This document shows, piece by piece, positions 30,702 through 47,202 of a stretch of 47,202 nucleotides of DNA. The notes under the pieces were generated by a model. The model made no database searches. It saw nothing but the letters and a program-made list of their open reading frames with translations, and was not told the origin of the DNA. The position numbers and the translations under genes were made by a program. Position 1 is the first letter of the stretch. Each line of letters begins with the position of its first letter. Origin of the DNA: Rhizobacter sp. (GTDB lineage: Bacteria; Pseudomonadota; Gammaproteobacteria; Burkholderiales; Burkholderiaceae_C); NCBI GenBank assembly GCA_023954175.1, contig JAMLIM010000024.1, forward strand, positions 1-47,202, given 5' to 3'.

Positions 30702-30708
30702 CACGACA

Positions 30709-31797
30709 GTGAACGCGTCGTCCGCGTCCGGCGCCCCGGCGGGTTCACGCAGATCGCGGGGCGCGCCGCAGCGCACGGGCGCGAGCCCGCGCGAGGTGCT
30801 GTTCGGCGCCAACGATCCGGCGCCGATGCTGCCGGTGTGCGACCACTATGCGGGCGTCGAGTCGCGCATGCGCAAGGCTCTGGCCCTGCAGGGCGAGATG
30901 GGGCCGGTGTTCGACGTCACGCTCGACTGCGAGGACGGCGCGCCGGTCGGCGGCGAGGCCGAACACGCGCAGCGCGTGGCCGAGTTCATCGACTCCGCCG
31001 CCAACCTGCACGGCCGTGTCGGCGCGCGATTGCATCCGGTGCACCACGCCGCGTTCGCCCTCGAGGCCGAGACACTGGTGCGCCGCAGCGGGCATCGCGT
31101 CGCCTACCTGATGTTGCCCAAGGCCCATGGCCTGGCCGACGTGCAACGCGCGTGCGACGAGATCGACCATCACGCGCGGGTGGCTGACCTCAAGCGCCAG
31201 ATTCCACTGCACGCGCTGATCGAAACCCACGGCGCGCTGGCCGAGGTCGCGGCGATCGCCGCCCATCCGCGCATCGAGTCGCTGTCGTTCGGGCTGATGG
31301 ACTTCGTCGCCGCGCACCGCGGCGCGATCCCGCAGACGGCGATGAGCGCGAGCGGCCAGTTCGAGCACCCGCTCGTGGTCCGCGCCAAGCTCGAGATCTC
31401 GGCCGCCTGCCACGCCCACAACAAGACGCCGTCGCACTGCGTCGTCACCGAATACAAGCACCTCGACCTGCTCGAGGCCGCGGCCCACAAGGCGGCGCGC
31501 CTCTTCGGCTACACCCGCATGTGGAGCATCCACCCGGATCAGATCCAGACCATCATCGACGCCTTTGCACCCTCGGTCGCGGAGGTCGATCAGGCGGTCG
31601 AGATCCTGCTTGCCGCGCAGGCCGCGGACTGGGCGCCGACCAGCCACAAGAGCGGCAGCATCGCTACGCTGCACGATCGCGCGAGCTACCGCTACTTCTG
31701 GCACGTGCTCGAGCTCGCGCAACGCACCGGGCAGCCGCTGCCGGTCCCTGCGCGCGAAGCCCTGTTCGGCGACGCGGGCGCTTCCGCAGCACTCTGA
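30709..31797 (+). CDS. CitE/HpcH-HpaI family CoA-ester lyase
   Basis: The 362-residue TIM-barrel protein belongs to the HpcH/HpaI aldolase and citrate lyase beta family. It has [12 protein letters not shown] with the Mg-binding acids, RLHPVHH with the substrate Arg, [20 protein letters not shown] with the second Mg-binding Glu, and [14 protein letters not shown] near the C-terminus. Members cleave citramalyl-, malyl- or citryl-CoA. With no citDF genes nearby, a malyl-CoA or citramalyl-CoA lyase is more likely than citrate lyase. The start is GTG at 30709, seven bases after mdh; the first 28 residues are low-complexity and a later start is possible. Confidence 0.87.
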
Positions 31798-31907
31798 CAG
31801 CCCACACGTCTGATCTCATTTGTTGCATTGAACCCCGAGACTCACGCTCGAGAACCGGCGTCGCGCGCCGACAATCCTGCACCCTCACCACGATGCGGAG
31901 CATGCCC

Positions 31908-32447
31908 ATGAACAGAATTTCCGCCCCGACGCTGACCCTCGCGCTCGTGCTCGGCCTTGCCGGGGGCGCGCAGGCGCAGTCGGGCACCGCGACCAAGAAG
32001 TCGAAGGCCACCACCGAAGCCTCGGCATCGCGTCAGATGCTCAGCGATCAGGCCAAGGGCCTCGCACTCGCCGCCGACACGACCGAAACGATCGACGCCA
32101 ACCGGCTGGGCGTCGCCGCACGCGTGCTGACCGGCAGGGCTGACTGCGAGTTCAACCTGAGCGTCGACGTCAACCCCCTGCCGGACAAGCCGGGCTACTT
32201 CCAGGTGCGCTTCAAGAACGCGAGCTATCTGATGGTGCCCGAAGAGACGACCACCGGCGCGGTCAAGTTGCTCGAGCGTCGAAGCGGCGTGATCTGGCTT
32301 CAGATCCCGACCAAGTCGATGCTGCTCGACGGCCGCGAAGGGCGCCGACTCGTCGACGCCTGTACGCTCGCCGAGCAGCGCGCCGCCGTGAATGCCGCCG
32401 ACGCCGCCGCCGACAGCATGGCCACACCCACCGCCGTCAAGAACTAG
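31908..32447 (+). CDS. Small exported protein of unknown function
   Basis: The 179-residue product has a clear signal peptide (MNRISAPTLTLALVLGLAGG, cleavage likely after AQA) and a mature part with one Cys pair (RADCEFNL and VDACTLAEQR) that could form a disulfide. The segment KPGYFQVRFKNASYLMVPEE is beta-rich. I do not recognise the family. GGAG stands seven bases before the ATG at 31908; in-frame ATGs 6 and 15 bases upstream are less well placed. It lies between the CitE-like gene and acnB, about 100 bases from each. Confidence 0.75.
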   Translation: MNRISAPTLTLALVLGLAGGAQAQSGTATKKSKATTEASASRQMLSDQAKGLALAADTTETIDANRLGVAARVLTGRADCEFNLSVDVNPLPDKPGYFQVRFKNASYLMVPEETTTGAVKLLERRSGVIWLQIPTKSMLLDGREGRRLVDACTLAEQRAAVNAADAAADSMATPTAVKN

Positions 32448-32547
32448 CGCCGCGGGTGCCGGCATCGGTTGGATGCCGCGCCAGACGCCAGTCGATATTG
32501 CTCATCCCCACCAAGACCCATCCCCAACAAATCGCTCCGGACTCCCC

Positions 32548-35144
32548 ATGTTGCAAGCCTACAGAACCCATGTCGCCGAACGCGCCGCGCTCGGCATTCC
32601 GCCGCTTCCTCTTTCGGCATCGCAGACCGCCGACTTGATCGAATTGTTGAAGGCGCCGCCAGCGGGCGAGGAAGCGGCGCTCGTCGAGATGATCGCGCAG
32701 CGGGTACCGGCCGGCGTCGATGACGCGGCCAAGGTCAAGGCGAGCTACCTTGCGGCGGTCGCGCATGGCACCGAGGCCTGCACGCTGATCAGCCGCGAGA
32801 AGGCGGCCGAACTGCTGGGCACCATGCTCGGCGGCTACAACATCGCGCCGCTGATCGACCTGCTCGATGATGCGGCCGTCGGCGCCGTCGCGGCCGAGGC
32901 GCTGAAGAAGACGCTGCTGATGTTCGACGCCTTCCACGACGTCAAGGCGAAGGCCGACGCCGGCAGCGCCAACGCGAAGGCCGTGCTGCAAAGCTGGGCC
33001 GACGCCGAGTGGTTCACGAGCCGCCCCGAGGTGCCCGAGAGCATCACCGTCAGCGTCTTCAAGGTGGCCGGCGAGACCAACACCGACGACCTCTCGCCCG
33101 CGCCCGACGCCTGGAGCCGCCCCGACATCCCGCTGCACGGCCTGGCGATGCTGAAGAACCCGCGTCCCGGCATCACCCCGGGGAAGACGGCAAGCGCGGC
33201 CCGGTCAAGTTCATCGAGGACCTGCGTGCGCGCGGCCACCTCGTCGCCTACGTCGGCGACGTCGTCGGCACCGGTTCGAGCCGCAAGTCGGCGACCAATT
33301 CGGTGCTCTGGTTCACCGGCCAGGACATTCCCTTCGTGCCGAACAAGCGCTTCGGCGGCGTCTGCCTGGGCGGCAAGATCGCGCCGATCTTCTACAACAC
33401 GATGGAAGACTCGGGCGCGCTGCCGATCGAGCTCGACGTGAGCCAGATGAACATGGGCGACGTGGTCGAACTGCGCCCCTACGAAGGCAAGGCACTGAAG
33501 GACGGCAAGGTGATCGCCGAGTTCAGCGTCAAGAGCGACGTGCTGTTCGACGAGGTGCGCGCCGGCGGCCGCATCCCGCTCATCATCGGCCGCGGCCTCA
33601 CGGCCAAGGCGCGCGAGGCGCTCGGGCTGGCGCCCTCCACCCTCTTTCGGCTGCCGCAGAACCCGGCCGACACGAAGCGCGGCTTCAGCCTGGCGCAAAA
33701 GATGGTCGGCAAGGCGTGCGGCCTGCCGCTCGTCAACGGCAACCAGCAAGGTGTGCGCCCCGGTACCTATTGCGAGCCGCGCATGACCTCGGTGGGCAGC
33801 CAAGACACCACCGGCCCGATGACGCGCGACGAGCTGAAGGATCTGGCCTGCCTCGGCTTTTCCGCCGACCTCGTGATGCAGAGCTTCTGCCACACCGCCG
33901 CCTACCCCAAGCCGGTGGACGTGAAGATGCACCACGAGTTGCCGGACTTCATCAGCACCCGCGGCGGCATCAGCCTGAAGCCCGGCGACGGCGTGATCCA
34001 CTCCTGGCTGAACCGTCTGCTGCTGCCCGACACCGTCGGCACCGGCGGCGACAGCCACACGCGCTTCCCGGTGGGCATCAGCTTTCCCGCCGGCTCCGGC
34101 CTCGTCGCCTTCGCTGCTGCGACCGGCGTGATGCCGCTCGACATGCCCGAGAGCGTGCTCGTGCGCTTCAAGGGCAAGCTGCAGCCGGGCGTGACGCTGC
34201 GCGACCTCGTCAACGCGATCCCGCTCTACGCCATCAAGGCCGGGCTGCTGACGGTCGAGAAGAAGGGCAAGAAGAACATCTTCTCCGGCCGCATCGTCGA
34301 GATCGAGGGCCTGCCCGACCTGAAGGTGGAGCAGGCGTTCGAGCTCAGCGACGCCAGCGCCGAGCGCAGCGCCGCCGGCTGCACGGTGCACCTGAACGCC
34401 GAGCCGATCAAGGAGTACATCAACAGCAACATCACGCTGATGAAGCACATGATCGCGAGCGGCTACGCGGATGCCCGCACCCTCAAGCGCCGCATCGCGG
34501 CGCAGGAAGCCTGGCTCGCGGATCCGAAGCTGCTGAAGGCCGACGCCGACGCCGAGTACGCCGCCGTGATCGAGATCGACCTCGCCGACGTGCACGAGCC
34601 TATCGTCGCCTGCCCGAACGACCCGGACGACGTGAAGACGCTGTCCGAAGTCGCCGGCGCGACGATCGACGAAGTCTTCATCGGCAGCTGCATGACCAAC
34701 ATCGGCCACTTCCGCGCGGCGAGCAAGCTGCTCGAAGGCAAGCGCGACATCCCGGTCAAGCTCTGGGTCGCGCCGCCGACCAAGATGGACGCGCAGCAGC
34801 TCAGCGAGGAGGGCCACTACGGCGTGCTCGGCACGGCGGGCGCGCGCATGGAGATGCCCGGCTGCAGCCTGTGCATGGGCAACCAGGCGCAGGTGAAGGA
34901 AGGCGCGACCGTGTTCTCGACCAGCACGCGCAACTTCCCGAACCGGCTCGGCAAGAACGCGAACGTCTACCTCGGTTCGGCCGAGCTGGCGGCGATCTGC
35001 TCGCGCCTGGGCCGCATCCCGACCAAGGAAGAGTACATGGCCGGCGTCGGCGTGCTCGCGCCAAGCAGCGACACGATCTACAAGTACCTGAACTTCGACC
35101 GCATCGAGGAGTACACCGAGTCCGCGAAGACGGTCGCGATGTGA
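32548..35144 (+). CDS. acnB: Bifunctional aconitate hydratase 2 / 2-methylisocitrate dehydratase, apparent frameshift
   Basis: AcnB isomerises citrate to isocitrate with a [4Fe-4S] cluster and in some bacteria also hydrates 2-methylaconitate. The N-terminal HEAT-like domain ([20 protein letters not shown]) runs into the swivel domain ([20 protein letters not shown]). The frame breaks at about 33179-33184 and resumes one frame over as [55 protein letters not shown], with cluster cysteines in [11 protein letters not shown] and [10 protein letters not shown]. Adding one base gives 865 residues, the normal length. The deletion lies in a C4G4 run, so a sequencing error is likely. Confidence 0.94.
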
Positions 35145-35275
35145 GCTTCGCGCGCGCCGCGCTGCCGATGGCGGGTGGCGGCGCACTGCAGCCCCGGCGA
35201 GCCGGCACCGCGCTCTGCCGATAGGCGGTGGCTGTCGGGCCCCGCCTCCACAGCGTTTCGGCGACGATGCAGCCG

Positions 35276-35884
35276 TCAGCTGCCGCGCATCGACCAGCCC
35301 AGCATCAGCAGGCCGCTGGCCGCGATCCAGCTGCCGCCGACGCGCACCGCGATGCGCACCCACGCGGCGCGCAACGGGACGATCGCCGCCGCAACCAGTG
35401 CGACGACGACGAAGACACTCGCCGCGAGCCCGGCCATCGCGACGACGGCGGGCAGCGCCAGCCCCATGCCGCTGCCGTTGAGGTAGCCGTGGAACAGGCC
35501 CATCAGTGCCGCGAGCGCCGTGAGCGCCCCGAGCGACAGCTTCGCATCGAAGACCACCAGGCCGCCGAGCAGCACGAGCCACAGCGCCGGGCCGAGCAGC
35601 CCGGTGCCGGTCGCAGCGGTTGCCAATCCAGCGAGGCTGCCGAGCAGCCAGGCAGCCGGCAGCGTGAAGAGCACGCGCCGGCCGTGCTCGGCGCCGCGCA
35701 ACCCGGCGAGCAACGCGAGCGCGAGCGCCGGCACGAGGTCCTCGGGGCTCGTCAGAAAGTGCAGCGCGCCGTCGTAGACCGGGCCCATGCCGGTCGACTC
35801 GAGGTGTGCCTCGGCGTTCGCCCCCGCGAGCAGCAGGAAGATCGCGATCGCGCTGCGCGCCGCGGTCGAGTGGCCCTGCCTCAT
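35276..35884 (-). CDS. HupE/UreJ-family membrane protein, copy 1
   Basis: The 202-residue protein has an N-terminal signal-like helix, then about six hydrophobic helices. The motif HLESTGMGPVYDGALHFLTS with DLVPALALALLAGLRG follows the signal, as in HupE/UreJ proteins. HupE and UreJ members are thought to move nickel or cobalt, classically for hydrogenase or urease. Neither enzyme is present in the window, so the substrate is unknown. It is the last gene of the run and overlaps copy 2 as ATGA. Confidence 0.8.
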   Translation of the reverse strand: MRQGHSTAARSAIAIFLLLAGANAEAHLESTGMGPVYDGALHFLTSPEDLVPALALALLAGLRGAEHGRRVLFTLPAAWLLGSLAGLATAATGTGLLGPALWLVLLGGLVVFDAKLSLGALTALAALMGLFHGYLNGSGMGLALPAVVAMAGLAASVFVVVALVAAAIVPLRAAWVRIAVRVGGSWIAASGLLMLGWSMRGS

Positions 35885-36486
35885 GCGACAGCCCGCCACA
35901 GAAAGAACACGCCGCCCACGGCGACGCCGGCACCGGCGGCGCGCAGCAGCCGGCGGCCCCAGCCCCAGCGGTGCACCGTGCCAATGCCGATGCCTGCGGC
36001 GTGCAGGCAGCCGGTGGCGACGACGAAGCCGATGCTGTAGAGCAGCGCGTTCTGCCCCACTGGCAACTCGGTGCCATGCGCATGGCCGTGGAAGATCGCG
36101 AAGACGCCGACGATCAGCGCCGCGACGGCAAGCGCCGGGCGCAGCTCGAACGCGACCGCGGCGCCGAGCACGATCGCCGAAGTTGCGATGCCGACTTCGA
36201 TGCCCGGCACCGGCACGCCGAGAAAACCGAGCATGCCGCCGAGCGCCATCACGAGCGGGAACGCCAGCGGCAGCACCCAGATCGCCGGCGCGCCGAGCTG
36301 CGCGCCCCACAGGCCGACCGCGACCATCGCGAGCACATGGTCCGCGCCCGACAGCGGATGCGCGAACCCGGTCAGGAAACCGGCCGCCTCGCGGGCCTGG
36401 ACGTGCGCCGACGCAGCCTGCGCCCACAGGGCCAGCAGCCCGGCGGTCGCGGCGCGCGTCCACGCAAGCCGGATCGTCGCGTTCAT
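35881..36486 (-). CDS. HupE/UreJ-family membrane protein, copy 2
   Basis: The 201-residue protein has a cleavable signal (LLALWAQAASA), then HPLSGADHVLAMVAVGLWGA and FAIFHGHAHGTELP, the two conserved His/Asp clusters of the HupE/UreJ nickel/cobalt transporter family. About six membrane helices are visible. It has the most typical HupE sequence of the three in this run. It overlaps copy 1 (ATGA) and copy 3 (ATGA), so the three are translated in one coupled series. Confidence 0.88.
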   Translation of the reverse strand: MNATIRLAWTRAATAGLLALWAQAASAHVQAREAAGFLTGFAHPLSGADHVLAMVAVGLWGAQLGAPAIWVLPLAFPLVMALGGMLGFLGVPVPGIEVGIATSAIVLGAAVAFELRPALAVAALIVGVFAIFHGHAHGTELPVGQNALLYSIGFVVATGCLHAAGIGIGTVHRWGWGRRLLRAAGAGVAVGGVFFLWRAVA

Positions 36487-37520
36487 CGCAGCGCCGCGAT
36501 CAGCAGCCCGACGCGCTGGAAAGTCCAGAGCGCGCCGAGCACGCCGACCGTGTAGCCGGGCAGCAGCTGCACCCAGCGCGGCCAGTGGATCCGCAGCACG
36601 CGAAACGACTGCACCAGCGCGAGCACGAGCGCGACGAAGCCGAGCTGGCCGACCTCGACGCCGACGTTGAACGACAGCAGCGCGAGCGGCAGGTCGCTGC
36701 GCGGCAGCCCGGCGCTCGTCAGCGCGGTCGCGAAGCCGAAACCGTGCAGCAGGCCGAAGGCGAAGGCCACGACCCACGGGTGGCGGATCGTGAAGCTCGA
36801 CTCGCCGCGCCACGCGCGCACGACTTCCGGCCCGAGGAAGAGGATCGACAGCGCGATCGCCGCGTTCAGCGGCAGCGCCGGCACCTCGGCATAGCCGAGC
36901 GTCGCCATCGCGAGCGTGATGCTGTGCGCGACGGTGAACGCGGTGACGGTCTTGAGCAGCATCCAGCGCGACTGCACGATGAGCAGCAGCCCGAGGACGA
37001 ACAGCAGGTGATCGGCGCCGAACAGGATGTGGCGGATGCCCTCGACGCCGTAGGTGAACGCGACCTGCCAGCCCGTCTGCGCAGCGGGGATGTCGAGCCA
37101 CGCCTGCGACGGGCGCACGATGCTCTGCACCGTCGTGCCGTCGAGCTTCTGCACGCGCACGAGCACGTCGGTGATCGTGAACTGCAGCCCCGGGAATTCG
37201 ATGCGCCGGCCGGCGAGGCCCTGCGGCCCGGCGTCGATCGAGCGCCGCTCGAGCAGTGAGTCGGCGAGTTCGTGGACCTGCGGCTCCTGCAGGTTCTTCA
37301 CGCTGTCGGGCAGCTTGAGCAGCACCGGCAGGCGCATGCCGGCGAGCACCGGCGTGCGCCACAGCAGGTCGTAGCGGCCGGGCGCGGTCTCCTTGATCTC
37401 GAGGTAGCACGGCCGCGCCTCGTGGGCGCGGGCCGCGGGCCACGCGGCAAGCAGGCACAGCAGCGCCAGCAGCGCGATGCCGGCCTGGCGCCATGCGCCG
37501 TGCAGCGTGGTGGCGTTCAC
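36483..37520 (-). CDS. HupE/UreJ-family membrane protein with exported N-terminal domain, copy 3
   Basis: The 345-residue protein is longer than the other two. It has a signal peptide (LLALLCLLAAWPAARA), about 130 mature residues that look periplasmic (ARPCYLEIKETAPGRYDLLW, IEFPGLQFTITDVLVRVQKL), and then a membrane part with GIRHILFGADHLLFVLGLLL, FTVAHSITLAMA and LLHGFGFATALTSAGLP, the metal-family His/Asp motifs. It matches the HupE/UreJ_2 type. The start is GTG at 37520, overlapping the ppiC-type gene stop as GTGA. The periplasmic domain could receive the metal or bind a partner protein; that is inferred. Confidence 0.85.
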   Translation of the reverse strand: MNATTLHGAWRQAGIALLALLCLLAAWPAARAHEARPCYLEIKETAPGRYDLLWRTPVLAGMRLPVLLKLPDSVKNLQEPQVHELADSLLERRSIDAGPQGLAGRRIEFPGLQFTITDVLVRVQKLDGTTVQSIVRPSQAWLDIPAAQTGWQVAFTYGVEGIRHILFGADHLLFVLGLLLIVQSRWMLLKTVTAFTVAHSITLAMATLGYAEVPALPLNAAIALSILFLGPEVVRAWRGESSFTIRHPWVVAFAFGLLHGFGFATALTSAGLPRSDLPLALLSFNVGVEVGQLGFVALVLALVQSFRVLRIHWPRWVQLLPGYTVGVLGALWTFQRVGLLIAALR

Positions 37521-38449
37521 TTCGGCGTCTCGGCCGGGCGTGCCGGGCCGGTCGAAGGCGCTGACGCCGACGCTTCGGCCTCGGGCGGCGCCGGCAGCAG
37601 CACGGTGTACTTGGCGCGCATGTCCTTGTAGGCTTTGTCCCAGGCCGACGCCTTCTGTTCGCCGAGCCAGGCGGTCTTCACTTCGGGCTCGATCTCGGCG
37701 AAGGCCGGCACGCGGCCCGGCACGACGGTATCGACGTACACCAGGTGCCAGCCCATGCCCGATTCGACCGGGCCCTGCCACGCGTTCGGCGCGAGCCTGC
37801 CGACGTCGATTGCGAAGCGCGGCCCGAACTCCTTGCCGAGGAATTCGCCGGTGCGGTCGCGGTAGTAGTCCTGGAAGATCATGCGGTCGCCGAGCGAGGC
37901 GGCAGCGGCAGCGTCCTCGGGCTGGCCGGCGAGCTTCTGCAAAGCCTGCGCCGCATCGTCCTTCGCCCGCGCGCCGCGCTTGTCGGGCGAGAAGTAGAGC
38001 TGGCGAAAGCTCACCCGCCCGGGCAGCCTGAACTTGTCCTGGTTCTTGTCGAACCACGCCTCGAGCTCGGCCGAGCTCGGCTCGTGCGCCGCGGCCACGT
38101 CCTCGGCGATGAACTTCATCTTCTGCGCCATGCGGCGCTTGACGATCTCGTCATCCTTGTCGAGGCCGAGCGCGAGCGCCTCGCGGTAGAGCACCTCCTG
38201 GCGGATCCTGTCCTCGGCGAGCGCGGCGAATTCATCGACCGTCGGCGGCCGTCGCCATTGCGACTGGAACGCGGTCGCGAGTTGCAGCAGTTCGTCCGGC
38301 GTCAGCCGGATCTCGCGCGACGGATTCGGCGCCTTGCCGAGCTGCGGCTCGAAGGTCGCGGCCGCGGCGAACAGCGCCGCGCCGAGGACCAGGAAGTGCA
38401 GCAGGGGTTCGCGCAGCAGGCGCCGGATTGGCGTTGACGGGTTCGGCAT
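37517..38449 (-). CDS. Membrane-anchored parvulin-type peptidyl-prolyl isomerase
   Basis: The 310-residue protein has one N-terminal membrane helix (LLHFLVLGAALFAAAATFEP), a SurA/PpiC-like helical chaperone segment at about 50-150 (RIRQEVLYREALALGLDKDD), and a parvulin domain at about 150-270 (RVSFRQLYFSPDKRG, GWHLVYVDTV). The isomerase domain faces the periplasm. Folding of exported proteins is the likely role, possibly of the DUF3604 proteins encoded just upstream. The ATG at 38449 lies 51 bases after the stop of the preceding small gene and its stop overlaps the next start. Confidence 0.87.
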   Translation of the reverse strand: MPNPSTPIRRLLREPLLHFLVLGAALFAAAATFEPQLGKAPNPSREIRLTPDELLQLATAFQSQWRRPPTVDEFAALAEDRIRQEVLYREALALGLDKDDEIVKRRMAQKMKFIAEDVAAAHEPSSAELEAWFDKNQDKFRLPGRVSFRQLYFSPDKRGARAKDDAAQALQKLAGQPEDAAAAASLGDRMIFQDYYRDRTGEFLGKEFGPRFAIDVGRLAPNAWQGPVESGMGWHLVYVDTVVPGRVPAFAEIEPEVKTAWLGEQKASAWDKAYKDMRAKYTVLLPAPPEAEASASAPSTGPARPAETPK

Positions 38450-38500
38450 GGAGGAAGTCGGATGCGGGCGCCGGCGCGTACCCTGCGCCGCGGCGTCGGG

Positions 38501-39163
38501 TCAGTTGGCGGCGAGTCGGTGGTTCGGCTCCGGACGTGTGGCGCTGGCCGTGGCGTCGCCGCGCACGAGCCAGGCCCGCACCGCCTCGACCCTCGGCGCC
38601 GGGCCGTACAGGCGCAGGAGGCCGAGCGACAGCGCCTGCGCGGCAGGGAGTTGATTGTGGTTCAGGCGTTCGAGCACCGGCTCGTCGGTCACGGCGACCA
38701 CGTCGCCGCGCGTCGGGCCGGCGGTGTGCACGGCCAGGGCGAGGCCGGCGCGCTGCGTGCCGCCGGCGCGCACCGCGGCGAGGCGGCTCCACAGCATCGG
38801 CTCGACGAGCACGATCGCGAGCGCCGGCGCATCGGCGTCCGCCGTGGCCGCCAGGCGCGCGCGCAGCGTGACCAGCGAGGCCTCGATCCGCGCCCGCTCG
38901 GCGCGGCGTTCTTCGGCGGTCGTCGGTTCGTCGAGGCCGCGCCAGCGGTCGATCAGGCCGCTGTGCCGCGCCGCCGAGACCGCGCCGAGCACGTTGATCG
39001 CCTCGGGATAGGCGACATCCAGCGCCGAGCGTTGCAGCACGACGTCGTCACCCTCGAGCGCGCAGCCCCAGGCCGGGGCGGCGAGGCAGGCACCGGCCAG
39101 CGCCACGGCGATCACGCCAACGGGGCCGCGGCGCAGCGCGCGTGCCGGCGCTGCGCGACTCAC
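38501..39163 (-). CDS. Exported protein of unknown function linked to DUF3604
   Basis: The 220-residue product has a signal peptide ([19 protein letters not shown]) followed by a Cys at the mature end and an alpha-rich domain with [20 protein letters not shown] and [21 protein letters not shown] recognise no domain. The start is GTG at 39163 and overlaps the DUF3604 copy A stop as GTGA, so it is translated together with it. Because it stands between the DUF3604 gene and the isomerase gene, a role in the same exported system is likely. Confidence 0.7.
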
Positions 39164-41586
39164 TTCCTCACGTCCTGCGTGCGCAGGAACGCGTCCTGGT
39201 TCTCCTTCGTGTACTCACCCTTGCCGAGCCTGACGAGATTCTTCGGCCCTTCGGCGGCGACCTCGTAGTTGGCGTAGCCGAATTCGTTGCTGCGCGCGCC
39301 GTAGATCTTGTCTCCCAGCTTGTACAGCGTCATGCCGAAGGGCGTGTTGCCGACCATCGTGACGATGCGGCCGTCCTTGATCGAATACGGCGTCGGAATG
39401 GTCTGGTAGGTGTGCTCGGCGAGCTTGCCGGTCACGCCGGGCAGCGCCTCGCGCCGGCCGACGTAGCGCACCAGCATGTTGCCGGCATCGTCGTACTGGA
39501 CATTGTTGAGTTCGCCGGTCGCGTTGTTCGAGAACCAGTAGGCCTTGCCGACGATCATCGCCTTGAGTTGCTCGGTCGTCAGCGCCTTCGCGCCCTTGGC
39601 CTTGAGGTCGGCCACCGTCATGCCCGGCTTCGCCGCCTTGCGCGCCTCGTCGCTCGGCGTGTACCAGATCGGCGAGCTCCAGGCGCGCTCCTGCACCGTC
39701 TGCGGCACGCCGTCGGGCGGCGCGATGCCGATCTCGCGCGCCTGGATCAGGCTCCAGCGCGGCGTCGGGATCTCGAGCGCGCGGGCGTAGTAGAAGGCGT
39801 GCTGGCTCGGGTCGAAGTCGGGGTCGGTCCACACCGTCTTCAGCTCGACCGAGCCGACCGTGTTGGCGTAGGTCGCCTTGTCGTAGTCGACCGTGCTCCT
39901 GATCGGCGCGATGCGGCCGGTGTCGCGGTCCACCGGGCGATCGCCCGACCAGACGACGTCGTAGATCTTCTCGAAGCTCTGGCCGTTCCTGGTCCAACCC
40001 TTGACGATCTCGATGCGGTCGAGGTTGCCCGCGGTCGGGTCCTTCAGCGCCCAGACGACGAAGCTCGGTGCCTTGGCCTTCATCGGCGGCAGGTCGCCGC
40101 CCATCGGCACGCCGGCCGCATACGAGCGCTTGACCCAGTCGGCGGAGTTGGCGACGTCCTTCGCATAGTCCCAGCCGCCGAAGAAGCGGATCTTGATGCG
40201 CGGGCCGCTGGTGGCGAAGGTCTCCTTGCGGTACATCGCGTCCCACAGCGACGCGCGTGTGTTCTCCTCGGCCCAGATGCCCGACAACCCGGCCGGGTTC
40301 TCGGTGCGCACGTCCATGCCGACGAACAGGTGGCCGGACATGCGCGTCTCGATCGTGCCGTCGTTGATGCCGTGGCCGCCGTAGAAGTTCGTCTGGCGGT
40401 ACGGCGCGCCGGTGTTGTGCGAGTCCGAGCCGGCGACGAAGCCGAACTTGTACGGGTTGTAGCCGCGCGTGTCCTGCATCGCGACGCCGTCCTTGAGCGC
40501 CTGGCGCGCGTAGCTGCCGACGATGTGCGGAATGCGGCCGTTGCCGGCGGGCTGGCCGATCAGGAACATCTGCAGTTCGTAGTTCGCGAACTCGTCGTTC
40601 GGCGACAGCAGCGGGTGCGTTTCCGACTGGCCCTTGATCTGCTTCATCTCGACCAGCCGCTCGTTGCGCATGCGCGATTCGGCCCAGGCGGCGTCGATCG
40701 GCCGGCCGAAGCTGTCGACATCGGTCGGGTACATCCAGCCGTCGGAGAGGTTGGCGTTGTGCGAGATCGCGAGCAGCTCGTTGCCGGCCTTGCGCTGCGT
40801 GTCCATCCACTTCCACAGGTCCTCGGGGTGCCACGAGTCCATCGCCGTGAAGGGCTGCGTCGGCACCTTGGCGCAGTCGCGGAAGTAGACGTTGCGGTGC
40901 AGGTTGCGGTAGTTGAACTGCGAGGTGAATTCGTACGAGCAGAAGGCGGTGAACTTGCCCGGCTTGTTCTCGCTGTCGGCGATGTCGACGTTCTCCTTCC
41001 AGATCGTGCCTGCGACCTGCGGCGTCATGAAGGCCTTGATCGGCGGCTTGCTGACGAGCGAGACGAGGTAGAGAAACACCTTCTGCACGTCGGCCGGGTT
41101 GTTCGGGTCCTTCAGGATCAGTGGCTGCGCCTCGGGCAGCTTGCTCACCGGCGAGCCGGGCGTGTTGGCCATCTTGGTGACGCCGACGTATTCCGAATGG
41201 TCGGTCACGCCCATCCAGTCGAGCGGCTGCTCGATCTTGATGTCGTAGCCGAGCGGATGCTTGATCGTCGCGCCCTGCGCGTACTTCAGCGCCTCGGCCG
41301 GCCCGGTCAGGTGGTTGCCGAACAGCCAGGCGTCGACCGACCAGCTGGTGTGGATGTGCTGCTCGCCGAAGTAGGCGTTGCGCTCGGGGTTGGGCTGCGG
41401 CGCCGCGGCGCTGGCCGGGGCGCTCGCGCCCGTCTGCGCGTGCGCCTCGGAAATCAGCGACAGCCCGGTGGCCGGGGCCGCGGCGCTCGCGCCGTGCTCC
41501 GGCGCGCTGCGCTGACAGGACGCGAGCGATGCCAGTGCCGCCAGTGCGACGATCGTCAGACCGATGTGCCGAAAGTTTGAAGCCAT
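39160..41586 (-). CDS. DUF3604 family exported lipoprotein, copy A
   Basis: The 808-residue protein has a signal peptide with lipobox LASC (lipidated Cys at about 24), then the DUF3604 fold. Conserved metal-ligand-like clusters appear in order: [42 protein letters not shown] and [12 protein letters not shown]. These resemble PHP-type metal-dependent phosphoesterases, so a metallohydrolase on the periplasmic face is the best guess; the substrate is unknown. The ATG at 41586 follows CAGGTG. It is 66 bases downstream of copy B and shares a nearly identical 220-base block with it (40577-40796). Confidence 0.83.
40577..40796. repeat. Near-identical block shared by the two DUF3604 genes (copy A)
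   Basis: This 220-base block matches 43082-43301 in copy B with only 5 base differences that I can see, while flanking parts of the two genes differ much more. It covers the [13 protein letters not shown] metal-site region. Gene conversion or a local recent duplication is the simplest explanation. Confidence 0.75.
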
Positions 41587-41652
41587 CACCTGATACCCCG
41601 TGTTTGCAGCAAATAAGCCTTCGTAGCGACTCGCGCCGCCGGGTCGGGCCCG

Positions 41653-43980
41653 CTATTTCTTCGGCTCGGTCTTCGGCTCGGCCGGATGCACATCGCCCCC
41701 GCCGCCGGCCGCTTCGCCCTTGCCGAGCGGGTTCAGGAACAACGGCGGCTTGTCCAGGATCTCGTAGTTGGCAAAGCCGAATTCGTTGCTGCGCGCCGCG
41801 TAGTGCGCGTCGCCCAGCTTGTACACGGCCAGTTCCATCGGCGCCTGCGCCAGCGTCGTCACGACCTTGCCGTTGGCGATTCGGTACGGCGCGGTGACGC
41901 CTTGATAGCCGCTCTTGGCGACCGGGCCGAACAGGCTCGGCACGTTGTTTCGCCGGCCCACGTGCTGGACGATGCTCTGGCCGTCGACGTTGTAGACCAC
42001 CTTGAACATTTCGCCGGTGACGGTGTTGCGCATCCACACCGCTTTGCCCTTGTCCACCAGCAGCGCCTTCAGCTGTGCCTCGCCGAGTTGCGTGGCACCT
42101 TTTTGCGTCAGCGCGGCCACCGTCACGCCCTGCGGCGCGGCCTTGCGCGCGTCGGCGCTCGGCGTGTACCAGATCGGCGAGGCCCAGGCGCGCTCCTGCA
42201 CGATCGCCGGCACCACGTCGGGCGGGGCGATGCCCAGCTGCTTGGCCTGGATCGTGCTCCAGCGCGGCGTCGGGATCTCCAGCACGCGTGCGTAGTAGAA
42301 CGCGTGCAGGCTGGGGTCGAAGTCGGGGTCGGTCCACACCGCCTTCAGCTCGACCGAACCGACGCTGTTGGTGTAGCTGGCCCTGTCGATGTCGACGGTG
42401 CTCGCGATCGCGGGGATGCGCCCCGTCCACTTGTCCACCTTGCGGTTGCCGGACCAGGCGGCGTCGTAGATCTTCTCGAAGCTCTGCCCGTTCTTGGTCC
42501 AGCCCTTGATGATCTCGATGCGGTCGAGGTTGCCGGAGGTCGGGTCCTTCAGCGCCCAGACGACGAAGCTCGGCGCCTTGCCCTTGGGCGGCGGCAGGTC
42601 GGCGCCCATCGGCACGCCGCCGGCGTACGAACGCCTGACCCAGTCCTGGCCGGCCAGCAGGTCCTTGCCGTACGCCCAGCCGCCGAAGAAGCGCAGCTTG
42701 ATGTGCGGGCCGGAGACGCCGAAGGTCTCCCTGCGGTACATCGCGTCCCACAGCGCGGCACGCGTGTTCTCTTCGGCCCACACGCCGGTCAGGCCGGCCG
42801 GGTTCTCGTAGCGCACGTCGATGCCGGCAAAGTTGTGGCCGGCCATGCGCGTCTCGATGGTGCCGTCTTCCATCGCGTGGCCGCCGAAGAAGTTGTCCTG
42901 CCGGTACGGCACGGCGGTGTTGTGCGAGTCGGCGGCGGCGCCGAAGCCGAACTTGTAGGGGTTGTAGCCGCGCACGTCCTGCATCGTCAGGCCGTCCTTC
43001 AGCGCCTGGCGCGTGTAGCTGCCGACGAGCTTGTTGATGCGCCCCGAATCCGACGGCAGACCGAGCAGCACGCTCATGATCTCGTAGTTCGCGAACTCGT
43101 CGTTCGGCGACAGCAGCGGGTGCGTTTCCGACTGGCCCTTGATCTGCTTGATCTCGACCAGCCGCTCGTTGCGCGTGCGCGATTCGGCCCAGGCGGCGTC
43201 GATCGGCCGGCCCAGGCTGTCGACGTCGGTCGGGTACATCCAGCCGTCGGAGAGGTTGGCGTTGTGCGAGATCGCGAGCAGCTCGTTGCCGGCCTTGCGC
43301 TCGCTGTCCATCCACTGCCATAGCTCTTCCGGGTGCCAGTTGTCGAGCGCGGTGAACGGCGACGCCGGCACCTTTCCGCAGTCGCGGAAGAAGATGTTGC
43401 GGTGCAGGTTGCGGTTGTCGAACTGCGAGGTCCACTCGTAGGAGCAGAAGGCGGTGAACTTGCCCGGCTGATTCGCCGCGTCGGCGATCTTCACGTATTC
43501 CTTCCAGATCGGCTCGGTGATGTCAGGCGTCATCAGCGCCTTGACCGGCGGCGAGCTCAGCAGCTTGACGAAGGCCACGAAGGCGCGCTGCTGCTGCTCC
43601 TTGCTGTTCGGGTCGCTGATGATCAGGTCCTGCAGTTCGGGCAACTTGCTCGCCGCGGAGCCCGGCGTGTTCGCGAGCTTGCTGACGCCGACGTATTCGG
43701 AGTGGTCGGTCACGCCCATGAAGTCGAGTGGCGTATCGATCTTGACGTCGTAGCCCAGCGGATGCTTGATCTTTTCGCCCTTGGCGTACTTGTAGGCGTC
43801 GGCCGGACCGGTGATCTTGTTGCCGAACAGCCAGGCATCGGGCGACCAGCTGGTGTGCACATGGGTCTCGCCGAAGTAGGCGTTCTTGTCGGGGTTCTTC
43901 TGCGCGAGAGCCTGGCAGCTGGCCAGTGCCATGGCGCCGGCAAGGGCGAGGCGCATTGCATTCGGCATGTTCCGGTTCAT
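41653..43980 (-). CDS. DUF3604 family exported protein, copy B
   Basis: The 775-residue protein has a signal peptide (MRLALAGAMALASCQALA, cleavage likely after ALA) and the same metal-site series as copy [55 protein letters not shown]. Unlike copy A, an ALASC sequence is followed by a better signal-peptidase I site, so it may be soluble in the periplasm or a lipoprotein. The C-terminus ends in a Lys/Glu/Pro tail. The ATG at 43980 sits directly against a 14-base palindrome that contains its GAGG ribosome-binding site. It is the first gene of the run, divergent from an AraC-type gene. Confidence 0.83.
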   Translation of the reverse strand: MNRNMPNAMRLALAGAMALASCQALAQKNPDKNAYFGETHVHTSWSPDAWLFGNKITGPADAYKYAKGEKIKHPLGYDVKIDTPLDFMGVTDHSEYVGVSKLANTPGSAASKLPELQDLIISDPNSKEQQQRAFVAFVKLLSSPPVKALMTPDITEPIWKEYVKIADAANQPGKFTAFCSYEWTSQFDNRNLHRNIFFRDCGKVPASPFTALDNWHPEELWQWMDSERKAGNELLAISHNANLSDGWMYPTDVDSLGRPIDAAWAESRTRNERLVEIKQIKGQSETHPLLSPNDEFANYEIMSVLLGLPSDSGRINKLVGSYTRQALKDGLTMQDVRGYNPYKFGFGAAADSHNTAVPYRQDNFFGGHAMEDGTIETRMAGHNFAGIDVRYENPAGLTGVWAEENTRAALWDAMYRRETFGVSGPHIKLRFFGGWAYGKDLLAGQDWVRRSYAGGVPMGADLPPPKGKAPSFVVWALKDPTSGNLDRIEIIKGWTKNGQSFEKIYDAAWSGNRKVDKWTGRIPAIASTVDIDRASYTNSVGSVELKAVWTDPDFDPSLHAFYYARVLEIPTPRWSTIQAKQLGIAPPDVVPAIVQERAWASPIWYTPSADARKAAPQGVTVAALTQKGATQLGEAQLKALLVDKGKAVWMRNTVTGEMFKVVYNVDGQSIVQHVGRRNNVPSLFGPVAKSGYQGVTAPYRIANGKVVTTLAQAPMELAVYKLGDAHYAARSNEFGFANYEILDKPPLFLNPLGKGEAAGGGGDVHPAEPKTEPKK
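43082..43301. repeat. Near-identical block shared by the two DUF3604 genes (copy B)
   Basis: This is the partner of 40577-40796, in the same orientation and with the same length. The differences fall at scattered positions; the block boundaries are where codons begin to differ. Confidence 0.75.
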
Positions 43981-43994
43981 TTGAGGTACCTCAA
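43981..43994. promoter_or_regulatory. 14-base palindrome at the copy B start codon
   Basis: TTGAGGTACCTCAA is a perfect palindrome that ends one base before the DUF3604 copy B ATG, and its GAGG overlaps the ribosome-binding site. It could be a repressor/activator site, or an RNA hairpin (TTGAG/CTCAA, loop GTAC) masking the ribosome-binding site. Confidence 0.6.
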
Positions 43995-44033
43995 GATGGA
44001 GTTGCGAACCATTCTTGGATGGTAACGACGCCC

Positions 44034-44050
44034 GCAAGGTCCGACCTTGC
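44034..44050. promoter_or_regulatory. Inverted repeat GCAAGGT/ACCTTGC between copy B and the AraC gene
   Basis: GCAAGGT (44034-44040) and ACCTTGC (44044-44050) are perfect inverted arms separated by CCG. The arms share AAGGT/ACCTT with the AGGT/ACCT core of the palindrome at 43981. Both lie in the 150-base gap between divergent genes, so they may be related operator half-site arrangements for the AraC-type regulator or another factor. Confidence 0.55.
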
Positions 44051-44130
44051 AGTTCCGGACACAATCAACGCACCACGACGGCGGCGAAAGTGCCGGCAAG
44101 GAGACGATCGATGGGTGGACCATCACTGCC

Positions 44131-45183
44131 ATGAAGCAGCGCGCTGCCGCCGCCCGGGAACCGGGCCCGACGATGCGACTCAGCGCGCCGGGAGAGGTGC
44201 GTATCGGCCCGTTGCGGGCGCTGCCCACCGTGCTGCGCGAATGGGGTGTGGAGCCCCAGCGCGCGTTCGCCCGCGCCGGCGTCGATCCCGGACTGTTCGA
44301 CGACGCCGAGAGCCGCATGCCGTTCGAAGGGCTGAGCCGGCTGCTCGACATCTGCAGCAAGCTCAGCGGCTGCGCGCACCTCGGTCTGCTCGTCGGCGAG
44401 CGCTTCGACCTGCGCGCCTTCGGTCCGCTCGGCCAGCTGATGCGCAACTGCCCGACGCTCGGCGACGCCCTGCACTGCCTGCTGCACAACCTGTACCTGC
44501 AGGACCATGCCGCGACGGTGCTGCTGTTGAAGGTCGAGACGGGCCGCGTGCTGCTCGGCTATTCGATCTATCGCCACGGCAGCGCTGCGGCGCTGCAGGT
44601 CCTGGACGCAGCCATTGCCGTCGGCTACCGCCTGCTCGCCGAACTGGGCGGCAGGCGCTGGCAGCCGGTGCGCGTGCAGCTCGCGCACGGCCGGCCCCGC
44701 AGCGTCGAGGCCTTCCGCGCCGTGTTCGGCCCGCACCTCGTGTTCAATGCGGAGGTTTCGGGCATCGTCTTCGATGCAGACTGGCTGGGCCAGGGCATCG
44801 CAGGGGCCGATGCGACGCTGCATGCGCAGCTGAGCCAGGCGCTGCGCGACGCGGAGAGTGCGAGCGCGGTGCGTTTCAGCGACCGGGTGCAAAGCGTGCT
44901 GCACCAGATGCTGCTCGGCAGCGAGATCTCGACCGCGGCCGTGGCGCAGCACTTCGGCCTGCACGAGCGCGGCCTGCGTCGCCGGCTGGCCGCCGAGGGC
45001 GAAAGCCTGCAGCAGCTCGTCGGCCGCACGCGTTTCGAGCTGGCCCGGCAACTGCTGAGAAACACCGGCCTACAGGTGACGCAGATCGGCCTCGCGCTGG
45101 GCTACGAAGACGCGAACGCCTTCAGCCGTGCCTTCCACCGCTGGGCGCAATGCAGCCCCACGCAATGGCGTGCCGGGGCATGA
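44131..45183 (+). CDS. AraC-family transcriptional regulator
   Basis: The 350-residue product has an N-terminal AraC-binding-like domain (RIGPLRALPTVLREWGVEPQ, GLLVGERFDLRAFGPLGQLM) typical of OruR/ArgR-type AraC proteins. The C-terminal 100 residues hold two helix-turn-helix units (STAAVAQHFGLHERGLRRRL and TQIGLALGYEDANAFSRAF). It is divergent from the DUF3604/HupE run and is the likely regulator of it. The start is uncertain: ATG 44131 or 44173 fit the domain; I chose 44131. An effector cannot be named from the sequence. Confidence 0.86.
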   Translation: MKQRAAAAREPGPTMRLSAPGEVRIGPLRALPTVLREWGVEPQRAFARAGVDPGLFDDAESRMPFEGLSRLLDICSKLSGCAHLGLLVGERFDLRAFGPLGQLMRNCPTLGDALHCLLHNLYLQDHAATVLLLKVETGRVLLGYSIYRHGSAAALQVLDAAIAVGYRLLAELGGRRWQPVRVQLAHGRPRSVEAFRAVFGPHLVFNAEVSGIVFDADWLGQGIAGADATLHAQLSQALRDAESASAVRFSDRVQSVLHQMLLGSEISTAAVAQHFGLHERGLRRRLAAEGESLQQLVGRTRFELARQLLRNTGLQVTQIGLALGYEDANAFSRAFHRWAQCSPTQWRAGA

Positions 45184-45311
45184 GCCGGCCCAGCGCGCGC
45201 GATCGGCGTGACCTGCAGCACTGGTGGCGGCCGCGAGGGCGTTGCAGGGCTTTGCCGACGCGTCGGACGCCTGCTGTTCGCAGGCCGCACGCCGACGATC
45301 GACGTGCCGCG

Positions 45312-46745
45312 TCAGTCGGGCGGCGGTGCGATCTGCTCGGCGTAGTCGACGAGCGCCTCGAGGATCGCCTGGCCGCGTTCATCGGCCGATTCGGCGAGCA
45401 CGTCGATGCGCTCCTGATAGGCCGCGAGCGTGAGGGCGCCGGCGCTGCCGTGGTGCAGCCTCTCGCTGCAATGCTCGGTCCATCGACCGCGCTCGGCATC
45501 GTCGAGCGTCTGCGGAAAGTTGCGCGCGCGGTAGCGAAACAGCAGTTCGTCGAGGCGACCATCTTCGAAGGCAGGATGCCTGGCCGCCAGCTCGTCCGGT
45601 AAAAGGCCGCGCAGGCGCTGCAGCGTGCGGCGGTCTGCATTGCCGATGAAGCCGCCGTAGAGGTCCTCGTCGACATCGGGCGCGCGCTCCGGCGCCGGGC
45701 GCGCAAAGGCATCCGCCCAGAGTCCGTGCCGTGGCGCCGGCATGCCGCGCGCAACATCGGCGTGACGCAGCGCCAGTGCGATGTCGATGCCCCACTGCCC
45801 GGCGCGCGCGTCGTCGAGCGTGCGCAGGTTGCCGATCACGATCGGCGACTTGTTGACGTGCACCGTCTTGATCGGCAGCCGGCGCGTGCCTTCCGGCAAC
45901 TCGTCCTGCCGCACGAAAAGACGCGCGCGAATCGCGGCGGCGTCGAGCCCTTCGAGCTCGCGCGGGTCGTGCGCGAGGTCCCAGACGATCAGCTCGTTCT
46001 TGTTCGTCGGGTGGGCGGCCAAGGGCCAGACGACCGCAAGGCAGCCGCGTTCGGCCGGGTAGCGCCCAGAGACATGCAGAAACGGCCGCCCTTGCCCGAT
46101 CTCGGCCCAGACCGCGTCCTTGCGACGCAGCTTCAGGCAGAAATCCCAAAGACGCGGAACGGCGGACTTCACCCGCCGCGCGAGGGCGATCGTCGCGCGC
46201 ACATCGGACAGCGCGTCGTGAGCTGCCAGGTGCTCGACGCCGTTGGCCGCCGCGAGCTGCTCGAGCTTGAACGACACGCGCCCGTCCTCGAGCCGCGGCC
46301 ACTCGATGCCCTCGGGCCGCAGCGCGTAGACGCAGCGCATCACGTCGAGCAGGTCCCAGCGCGAGCAGTCGTTCTGCCACTCGCGCGCATAGGGGTCGAT
46401 CAGGTTGCGCCAGAAGAGAAAGCGCGTGACCTCGTCGTCGAAGCGGATGCTGTTGTAGCCGACGCCGATCGTGCCGGTCTGCGCCAGTTCGCGTTCGATG
46501 GCCGCGGCGAACTCGCTTTCGCGAAGGCCGCGCTCGAGGCAGGTCTGCGGCACGATGCCGGTCAGCAGGCACGACTCCGGATCGGGCAGGAAGTCCGGCG
46601 CCGGTTGGCAATAGTGCATCACCGGCTCGGCGATCTCGTTCAGTTCGGCGTCGGTGCGCACACCGGCGAACTGCGCCGGCCGGTCGCGGCGTGGCACGAC
46701 GCCGAAGGTCTCGTAATCGTGCCAGAAGAAACTTGTGCTGCTCAT
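45312..46745 (-). CDS. sbcB: Exodeoxyribonuclease I
   Basis: Exonuclease I degrades single-stranded DNA 3' to 5' and acts in mismatch repair and recombination. The 477-residue protein starts [15 protein letters not shown], with the first acidic pair D and E of the DEDD site. [11 protein letters not shown] carries the next Asp, and the last His-Asp pair is in [19 protein letters not shown]. The middle and C-terminal SH3-like and helical domains ([30 protein letters not shown]) match the family, and the length matches E. coli ExoI (475). The ATG at 46745 is in a 143-base gap shared with divergent acnA. Confidence 0.94.
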
Positions 46746-46888
46746 GGCGCGCAAGATACCCGATCGGCGCACGCACCTTGCCTGTCTCTGCGCAAGGGGC
46801 GTGCTCGGATCATTGCGACGTTCGGCCCGGTTCGCGCCAGAATGAGGGGACACGCGCCGCCCATGCGCAGCGAAACGAAGGAAATGCC

Positions 46889-47202
46889 ATGCCCAGCCCA
46901 CGCCAGCCCAAGTCCCACGCTTTTGCCGACACGCTGAAGAGCTTCCGCACCGCAAGCGGCAAGCAAGGCCGCTACTACTCGCTGCCCGCACTGGCCAAGC
47001 GCTACCCGAACATCGAGCGCCTGCCGGTGTCGATCCGCATCGTGCTGGAGAGCGTGCTGCGCAATTGCGACGGCCTCAAAGTCGCGCCCGAACACGTCGA
47101 GCAACTCGCCAACTGGCAGCCGGTGGCCGAGCGCAGCAACGAGATTCCGTTCGTCGTCGCGCGCGTCGTGCTGCAGGACTTCACCGGCGTGCCGCTGCTC
47201 GC
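46889..47202 (+). CDS. acnA: Aconitate hydratase A, 3' end cut by window edge
   Basis: The 104 complete codons begin [20 protein letters not shown] and continue [39 protein letters not shown] and [10 protein letters not shown], the N-terminal domain of AcnA/IRP-type aconitases. The enzyme isomerises citrate and isocitrate. AAGGAA lies five bases before the ATG. The rest, including the cluster cysteines, is outside the window. An AcnA-like methylisocitrate dehydratase (AcnD) is an alternative, but the sequence up to LLA resembles AcnA more closely. Confidence 0.9.

Follow-up and report, generated by a model that had tools for sequence, protein, structure and literature searches.

What could tie two exported DUF3604 proteins, a membrane-anchored parvulin and three HupE/UreJ-type membrane proteins together in one operon? 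The question is raised by a run of seven genes, all on the minus strand, which occupies exactly positions 35276-43980 of a 47,202 nt stretch of DNA from Rhizobacter sp. (GCA_023954175.1, contig JAMLIM010000024.1); this whole stretch is called the window below. From the upstream end the genes were named dufA, dufB, unk, ppi, hupA, hupB and hupC. A preliminary description of the locus had envisaged an exported system made up of all seven products. We show here that DUF3604, the parvulin-type peptidyl-prolyl isomerase (PPI) and HupA are the core of a module and form a conserved genetic unit. The exported system thus stood in this narrower form, whereas unk is a minor accessory and HupB and HupC are optional.

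The genes for DUF3604, PPI and HupA occur together

Named genomes were scanned for patterns from dufB; the 80 best of the 145 matches were retained and yielded 79 loci with flanks of up to 10 kb, which were then searched with family profiles. PPI was present at 57 of the 79 loci, compared with none of 40 control HupE/UreJ_2 places, and at 55 loci PPI and HupA were both found. When only loci flanked by 4 kb or more on each side were counted (52 loci), 41 had PPI and HupA, 11 had neither and none had a single one of the two; the co-occurrence that the preliminary description had named beforehand as the test of its proposal was therefore found. PPI and HupA were on one strand in 55/55 loci and at most 60 bases apart in 49/55, with a median overlap of 4. 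Judged by the record titles, the triad loci are from Pseudomonadota, Acidobacteriota, Bacteroidota, Verrucomicrobiota and a Myxococcaceae metagenome-assembled genome.

The control places were picked by hand in 39 class-sample genomes without DUF3604, and the stretches mostly extended ~5 kb to each side (in L140 and L147 the upstream side of HupA was limited to 0.5 and 1.7 kb). Within the stretches examined neither PPI nor DUF3604 was near the control HupE/UreJ_2 gene at any of the 40 places; one control, L157, had a HupE-like gene nearby. A chance cluster was rejected as an explanation, since 0/40 controls carry PPI and the arrangement recurs across phyla.

Because the named-genome scan had used dufB-like peptides, draws of genomes independent of dufB were added. 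DUF3604 was matched in 26 of the 274 genomes of a class sample (own genome included), and strongly (best E 2.4e-51 or better) in 18. The triad was found in 10 of the 13 assessable genomes with a strong match, again counting the own genome; G005, G011, G093, G186 and G229, with short contigs or contig ends, were outside these 13. Eight class-sample genomes had weaker matches and were examined at one place each: G112 had weak PPI and HupA matches beside DUF3604, G012 a remnant, and six had neither. PF13795, the HupA family, was matched in 19 of the 26 class-sample genomes with PF12228 (DUF3604) and in 60 of the 248 without it (Fisher p 1e-6, hand-counted table). Among 200 genomes of the same family any DUF3604 match was seen in just 8, the window's own included, thus the operon is patchy in its own lineage. 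All four further genomes of this sample with a full-length DUF3604 had the triad. A contig end truncates the locus of G380, and no triad accompanied the weak DUF3604 matches of G355 and G457.

The module is also found on plasmids. The plasmid searches listed 60 of 93 records for HupA and 60 of 78 for DUF3604, many of the plasmids being close relatives. DUF3604 was within 10 kb of HupA on 58 of the 60 listed records from the HupA search. Of these 60, 47 were also listed for DUF3604, with the two genes at most 5.4 kb apart, and 11 of the other 13 had DUF3604 beside PPI-HupA. PPI was directly upstream of HupA in all 18 plasmid regions examined. In a conjugative Sinorhizobium meliloti plasmid (L116, 4252-10553) type IV secretion genes and traA flank a compact DUF3604-DUF3604-PPI-HupA-unk cassette. 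The remnant in the class sample (L194, 5040-6038, minus strand) is a 333-aa open reading frame, in which the signal peptide and start of a DUF3604 protein are fused to the last part of a HupE/UreJ_2 protein; it was probably left by a deletion within a DUF3604-HupA locus.

To what extent PPI-linked HupA proteins are distinct from other HupE/UreJ_2 proteins can be seen from profile scores and trees. With the HupA profile the controls gave E-values of 9e-27 to 1e-60, the 55 named linked loci 8e-91 or better, the 18 plasmid regions 8e-123 to 2e-147 and linked proteins of 13 further genomes 4e-58 to 1e-132; the values of the linked L195 and L196 were inside the control range. A tree of 102 sequences separated 62/62 linked HupA from 40/40 controls with a support of 0.74, and in a tree of 129 sequences 88/89 linked HupA and 0/40 controls fell on one side (support 0.52). 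A PPI-linked HupA branch is therefore likely but not firm. Distances between the DUF3604, PPI and HupA proteins of the 55 loci agreed (Mantel r 0.81, 0.71 and 0.86, with 0/999 permutations each), and this matching divergence fits vertical descent and joint transfer alike.

DUF3604 is a probable PHP-type metallohydrolase

The two window copies, which share 67% identity, matched PF12228 over its full length (profile 1-591) with 686 and 682.6 bits at a cut-off of 20.4. An AlphaFold 2 (AF2) model of dufB, built from 61 sequences, had a mean predicted local distance difference test score (pLDDT) of 87.6. In a Foldseek search the best match of this model was the PHP-like phosphoesterase 3e38 (E 3e-5, probability 1.00), and the PHP domain of RNase AM (7ug9) was also matched (E 2.2e-3, probability 1.00). 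PHP proteins bind metal through an HxH, DH, E, H, DxH pattern. Residues H77, H79, H130, E219, H276, D388 and H390 were invariant in 61 DUF3604 sequences and D129 was conserved in at least 90 per cent, and the invariant ligand columns are common to dufA and dufB. The TM-scores of the PHP matches were low (0.15-0.24 by query and 0.48-0.50 by target, root-mean-square deviation 8.6-10.8, with a long query), therefore the assignment rests on the Foldseek probability and on the ligands. Taken together, the model and the ligand set indicate that DUF3604 is a probable PHP-type metallohydrolase with a probable multinuclear metal site, in agreement with the PHP-like metal-ligand clusters pointed out in the preliminary description.

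Searches of the PDB by sequence (phmmer with dufB, and the family profile A1) gave no credible relative of DUF3604. One DUF3604 protein touched the model of the CehA/McbA metallohydrolases (E 0.008, 15.7 bits at a cut-off of 80). Both window copies have LASC near the N-terminus, but since a lipobox-like motif was present in just 15/82 DUF3604 homologues, lipidation is not general. Up to five DUF3604 genes per locus were found to share a single PPI and a single HupA.

HupA resembles the anglerases in its motifs

The signal peptide of hupA ends in ARA, and with the cleavage site placed by eye the predicted mature protein starts with HEARPCY. The mature N-terminal residue was His in 47 of the 52 readable HupA sequences (3/55 were unreadable), and the membrane residues H164, D170, H171, H199 and H259 were invariant in 55/55. 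Between the N-terminal His and the membrane motif hupA has an extracytoplasmic stretch of ~127 residues, in agreement with the separate periplasmic domain that had been ascribed to one of the HupE proteins, and in 47 of the 62 linked HupA proteins in which both patterns were found the distance between the two motifs was 125-128 residues. The two motifs together were found in none of the 40 control HupE/UreJ_2 proteins.

This architecture recalls the anglerases Ang-1 and Ang-2, HupE/UreJ-2 permeases whose N-terminal domain is reported to bind Cu (dissociation constant 74 nM) and Ni (220 nM) (PMC12537917, 2025). In the solved Cu form described there the metal is bound through His1, and metal capture for uptake was proposed by the authors (PMC12537917). 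By its motifs HupA follows the anglerase plan. Its extracytoplasmic domain would thus be of the kind shown to bind Cu and Ni in related proteins, and by analogy HupA could bind metal as well.

The AF2 model of hupA (mean pLDDT 93.0) has eight strands in the N-terminal domain. Whereas the anglerase domain is an Ig-like beta-sandwich, Foldseek with this model gave nothing significant, antibody domains appearing at E 0.1 or worse. In PDB sequence searches with hupA and with a profile of the 55 HupA sequences (A2) no credible relative was found, and the profile did not recover the anglerase entry 9GCE at E up to 10. The same entry was recovered at E 1.4e-8 by a control homologue from a DUF3604-free genome (L137). 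As the profile of PPI-linked HupA misses 9GCE and the control homologue finds it, HupA is not shown to be an Ang-1 member; to judge from its sequence, it may be a third anglerase type.

The parvulin

The ppi product combines a Rotamase_2 domain with an N-terminal membrane anchor. Its best relative in the PDB was cell-binding factor 2 (3rfw, E 0.0012), which we take to be PEB4. Parvulin PPIases have a catalytic His pair; aligned position 235 was His in 62/63 PPI sequences.

HupB and HupC are an optional pair

HupE nickel permeases carry the motifs HX5DH and FHGxAHGxE. hupB keeps both (HX5DH and FHGHAHGTE), and hupC keeps the N-terminal His and has neither metal motif. At least one such gene was present in 21 of the 55 named loci with HupA: exactly two in 20, one, at a contig end, in 1, and none in 34. 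When 40 HupB/HupC homologues were divided by the presence of HX5DH, the second motif was found in 19/20 with it and in 0/20 without it. Of the 19 loci in which both were called, 18 had hupC immediately after hupB; in the 19th (L041) an early-called C start made the overlap larger. An Ala/Ser/Gly-His step near the N-terminus was seen, with a loose pattern, in 20/20 HupB and 19/20 HupC. The exception to the pairing was a plasmid (L217, 7668-8081), where a lone short 'hypothetical protein' matching the HupB/HupC profile (9e-19) lies between DUF3604 and PPI. These sequences are most simply read as a canonical subunit paired with a degenerate one.

The presence of hupB, in which both HupE motifs are found, raises the possibility that the HupE proteins serve another Ni or Co enzyme of the cell and are merely housed in the operon. 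A single NiFe-hydrogenase match was indeed found in the genome with a score slightly above the cut-off (29.7 at 25.8 bits), but it covered just 66/508 positions. The protein (L111, 742-2580, minus strand) lacks, by eye, the usual CxxC, and its gene adjoins one, also identified by eye, for a hydrogenase-4-like membrane subunit; it is possibly part of a Ni-free complex. No urease alpha subunit was found in this 94.7% complete genome. The genome's only three HupE_UreJ matches are those of the operon, and the HupA subtype travels with PPI. Service to such an enzyme is thus very improbable, and a role of the HupE proteins for urease or hydrogenase was rejected, there being no urease alpha subunit and no recognizable nickel hydrogenase; the preliminary description had correctly seen no such client.

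Operon layout, accessory genes and neighbors

The seven minus-strand genes (Table 1) were borne out by gene calls and Pfam matches, with the starts picked by eye (a codon score would put the unk start at 39115). The genes are as closely packed as first reported, although the number of tight junctions had been given as five of six: from dufA to hupC the distances are +66, -4, +51, -4, -4 and -4 bases, so that 6/6 overlap or are at most 66 bases apart. A signal peptide or membrane helix had been claimed for all products, which is supported by hydropathy for six: dufB, unk, ppi and hupA have an N-terminal hydrophobic segment, and hupA, hupB and hupC each have several membrane segments. The signal-like N-terminus of dufA is short and remained under the 19-residue hydropathy threshold.

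Table 1. Genes of the operon, the divergent regulator gene and an example of the C4 family
Feature	Position	Strand	Product	Family match
dufA	41653-43980	-	DUF3604 (PHP-like metallohydrolase, probable), 775 aa, signal-like N-terminus with LASC	PF12228, E 5.9e-205
dufB	39160-41586	-	DUF3604 paralogue, exported, 808 aa, lipobox-like LASC	PF12228, E 5.4e-206
unk	38501-39163	-	exported protein, 220 aa, Cys at likely mature N-terminus	
ppi	37517-38449	-	membrane-anchored parvulin, 310 aa	Rotamase_2, E 3.8e-18
hupA	36483-37520	-	HupE/UreJ_2 with N-terminal extracytoplasmic domain, predicted mature N-terminal His33	PF13795, E 1.9e-44
hupB	35881-36486	-	canonical HupE, mature N-terminal His	PF04955, E 6.1e-55
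hupC	35276-35884	-	degenerate HupE-like partner of hupB	PF04955, E 1.7e-9
Regulator	44047-45183	+, divergent	AraC-type regulator with Arabinose_bd domain, start uncertain	PF12625, 1.1e-35; HTH_18, 1.8e-19
C4 example	L050 13259-14350		exported C4 family protein	

No Pfam or NCBIfam match above cut-off was obtained with unk. Its homologues were found at nine other loci (L057, L063, L095, L115, L116, L210, L211, L212 and L218), often right after HupA, and in five aligned members C34, E37, W125 and H146 were invariant, with Cys at the likely mature N-terminus. That unk is essential to the module was rejected, as 2 of the 52 loci of the flank-restricted count and 6 of the 18 plasmid regions contained it. 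Commoner elsewhere is C4, another exported family. Neighbor clusters were counted over 103 loci and one member of each was tested against families; C4 occurred in 18/103, in 16 of them between DUF3604 and PPI, in one between PPI and HupA and in one after DUF3604 at a contig end. A CxxC motif, mostly CAIC or CPLC, follows the signal peptide directly in 16 of the 18 C4 proteins, the other two calls being without N-terminus. The tested C4 member had no Pfam match above cut-off.

Looser neighbors were a sulfatase (16/103 loci), DUF1254/DUF1214 (11/103, and 5/14 annotated plasmid regions) and an AraC regulator with a ligand domain (8/103). Further clusters were PF13557 porins, DUF2092, DUF6515 and a HAD hydrolase; the two outer-membrane protein clusters tested were both PF13557-type, one member also matching a TonB barrel model below cut-off. 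Metal regulators were not noticed beside the triads, though no systematic search for them was made; in L213 a regulator of the ArsR/SmtB type is 6 kb away from DUF3604. The DUF3604 genes of SAR86 (L101, L104-L108 and L110, L107 being titled Gammaproteobacteria) were without PPI or HupA in the stretch examined, and in 6 of these 7 the gene that follows downstream is from a cluster of which one member was tested and identified as a cytochrome P450.

The divergent AraC-type regulator of the window, with a possible start 66 bases upstream of the operon, matched 8/8 members of the cluster of regulators found close to other DUF3604 loci (best E 7e-38, 28% identity) and is a candidate regulator of the operon. 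The flanks are otherwise ordinary, with an aconitase-like gene (by eye) on one side and an exonuclease past the AraC regulator on the other. The aconitase-like gene (32392-35144, plus strand) is split over two frames, which overlap at 33009-33441; either the assembly is in error here or the gene carries a frameshift. No sigma-70 promoter was found by a scan of 35000-44400. Thirteen terminator-like hits were obtained in this range, 3.9 being expected, and 11 of them are inside operon genes; none was used.

Sulfatase, DUF1254/DUF1214, AraC regulator and PF13557 porin neighbors, together with the weak CehA/McbA match, would suit a catabolic cassette in which periplasmic DUF3604 cleaves an organic ester, phosphate, sulfate or carbamate, and PPI and HupA, though regulated together with it, serve the envelope in general and do not contact it. 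We consider this unlikely, as the all-or-none linkage of PPI and HupA and their matching divergence are closer than co-regulation of otherwise unrelated genes would lead one to expect, and the links to sulfatase and DUF1254 are far looser.

How the module may work

In our view the best model, with about an even chance of being correct, is a module for an exported metallohydrolase that has its own folding and metal-handling helpers in the membrane. That the module is built around the hydrolase is suggested by three observations: DUF3604 paralogues share one PPI and one HupA, DUF3604 occurs alone, and, in the samples examined, the only PPI-HupA pairs lacking DUF3604 were those of two related plasmids. 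The neighbors (hydrolases and porins, with metal regulators not noticed and not systematically sought) likewise make us lean to an enzyme-centered system.

The genetic unit, the folds, the motifs and the specificity of PPI were established by computation; we infer from them that HupA binds metal and directly assists DUF3604, and likewise which metal is involved, which way it is transported and what the substrate is. DUF3604, exported by Sec, would have its site of action in the periplasm or on the outer membrane, with the membrane-anchored parvulin as its dedicated folding helper. The N-terminal His domain of HupA may capture a transition metal, for which Cu and Ni are candidates from the solved relative. 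By handling metal at the same membrane surface, HupA could provide for loading of the hydrolase with the correct metal or keep a wrong one away from it. The parvulin and the metal-binding permease could fold and metallate DUF3604 as it leaves the Sec channel. HupB/HupC would be an optional second permease pair, and unk or C4 would be helpers that are exported and have a Cys close to the start of the mature protein.

Several observations weigh against this model. DUF3604 was without PPI and HupA at the 11 loci mentioned above (L077, L082, L086, L088, L090, L099, four SAR86 loci and L107, a gammaproteobacterial metagenome-assembled genome with the gene order of the four SAR86 loci), as well as in G178 and G244, where flank was available. 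In G138 DUF3604 and PPI are together and HupE/UreJ_2 is on another contig. The plasmids L114 and L209 (766-9918), near-identical in their surroundings, have PPI-HupA without DUF3604 within 9 kb, and the linked HupA of L195 falls with the controls, at weak tree support. At the level of residues, 5 of the 52 readable HupA sequences have Asp in place of the N-terminal His, and aligned PPI position 150 is His in 42/63 and Gln in 20/63, the window ppi included. An Rfam scan of window positions 30000-47202 and six other loci, in which one tRNA was seen, revealed no metal riboswitch. Finally, HupE-type permeases are described as importers to the cytoplasm, which makes outward delivery of metal by HupA doubtful. 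The proposal that all three HupE proteins supply the hydrolase with metal could not be upheld for this reason, and also because HupC lacks the metal motifs and HupB/HupC are present in only 21/55 loci. If HupA is an importer, the hydrolase may free metal for HupA, or HupA may clear the wrong metal.

In L114 and L209 PPI-HupA follows, at ~475 bases, an ABC transporter group with dipeptide/oligopeptide/nickel annotation, a GTP-binding protein and DUF1826, neighbors that hint at a metal. This arrangement, the import direction described for HupE, the presence in one operon of as many as three permeases that have an N-terminal His, and the several DUF3604 paralogues per permease, which could mean different substrates, would all agree with metal scavenging, that is, with hydrolysis of a metallophore, organic ligand or ester by DUF3604 and capture of the freed metal by the N-terminal His of HupA (or HupB/HupC) for import. 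The permease would then be served by the hydrolase, the opposite of the preliminary model. We give such a role little probability. Both tested outer-membrane clusters were PF13557-type, with one member below the cut-off for a TonB barrel; no riboswitch was found in the scanned part of the window and the six loci (metal regulators were not systematically sought); the tested recurrent neighbors include hydrolases (sulfatase, HAD) and DUF1254; and DUF3604 can occur alone.

With the exported-metallohydrolase model and its alternatives weighed in this way, we tentatively propose, at somewhat less than even chances, an undescribed envelope pathway in which an N-terminal-His permease and a membrane-anchored parvulin load metal into, or take metal from, an exported PHP-type hydrolase. 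If this is true, the module, partly mobile on rhizobial plasmids, would be a periplasmic equivalent of the operons for urease and hydrogenase maturation, HupA would define the third anglerase type, and HupB/HupC would be one active and one degenerate HupE subunit. The link to a parvulin and a metal-permease subtype turns DUF3604, common as the family is, from an orphan into a testable metalloenzyme system, and gives the new N-terminal-histidine permeases a natural partner. It also raises the question whether a HupE-type protein serves a periplasmic enzyme or the enzyme serves the permease.

Comparison with known systems

A description of the module was not found in the literature searched, subscription journals and preprints being outside its reach; the sole mention of DUF3604 in the texts available was in a Chlamydia transposon table, with no described function. 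Apart from unk and C4 all parts are from known families or superfamilies, and new to us are the way they are combined, the subtype of HupA and the pairing of HupB with HupC. Metalloenzyme operons with their own metal and folding proteins are a known kind, here for an exported enzyme.

DUF3604 resembles the PHP metallophosphoesterases (3e38, 7ug9) and CehA/McbA in its fold match and in the HxH/DH/E/H/DxH ligand set, but it is far larger (a 591-position core, with a C-terminal extension in the window), exported and without a sequence relative in the PDB. With the parvulin chaperones of the PrsA/SurA/PEB4 type ppi shares the Rotamase_2 domain and the N-terminal membrane anchor, whereas it is tied to one enzyme family, and the usual His150 is Gln in the window. 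The HupE/UreJ nickel permeases of hydrogenase and urease operons are comparable in the hupB motifs HX5DH and FHGHAHGTE and in the placing of permease and metalloenzyme in one operon. In contrast to these operons, that of the window has no hydrogenase or urease gene, a degenerate hupC follows hupB, and the client enzyme is exported.

The closest parallel to HupA is that with the anglerases, which likewise have, as described in the main text of their report, a signal peptide, a mature N-terminal His, an extracytoplasmic domain and a PF13795 membrane domain (PMC12537917). The mature starts are similar (HEVRPAI in 9GCE, HEARPCY in the window hupA), and the spacing of H164, H171 and H199 in HupA (7 and 28) equals that of the predicted His194, His201 and His229 of MmAng-2a (PMC12537917). 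The two differ in length, the anglerase linkers being at residues 175-184 (PMC12537917) and the stretch from His1 to the membrane motif of HupA having ~127 residues. They differ also in company: HupA adjoins PPI and DUF3604, whereas the words 'isomerase' and 'peptidyl-prolyl' do not occur in the main text of the anglerase paper (PMC12537917), and that paper was not among the results of the DUF3604 literature search.

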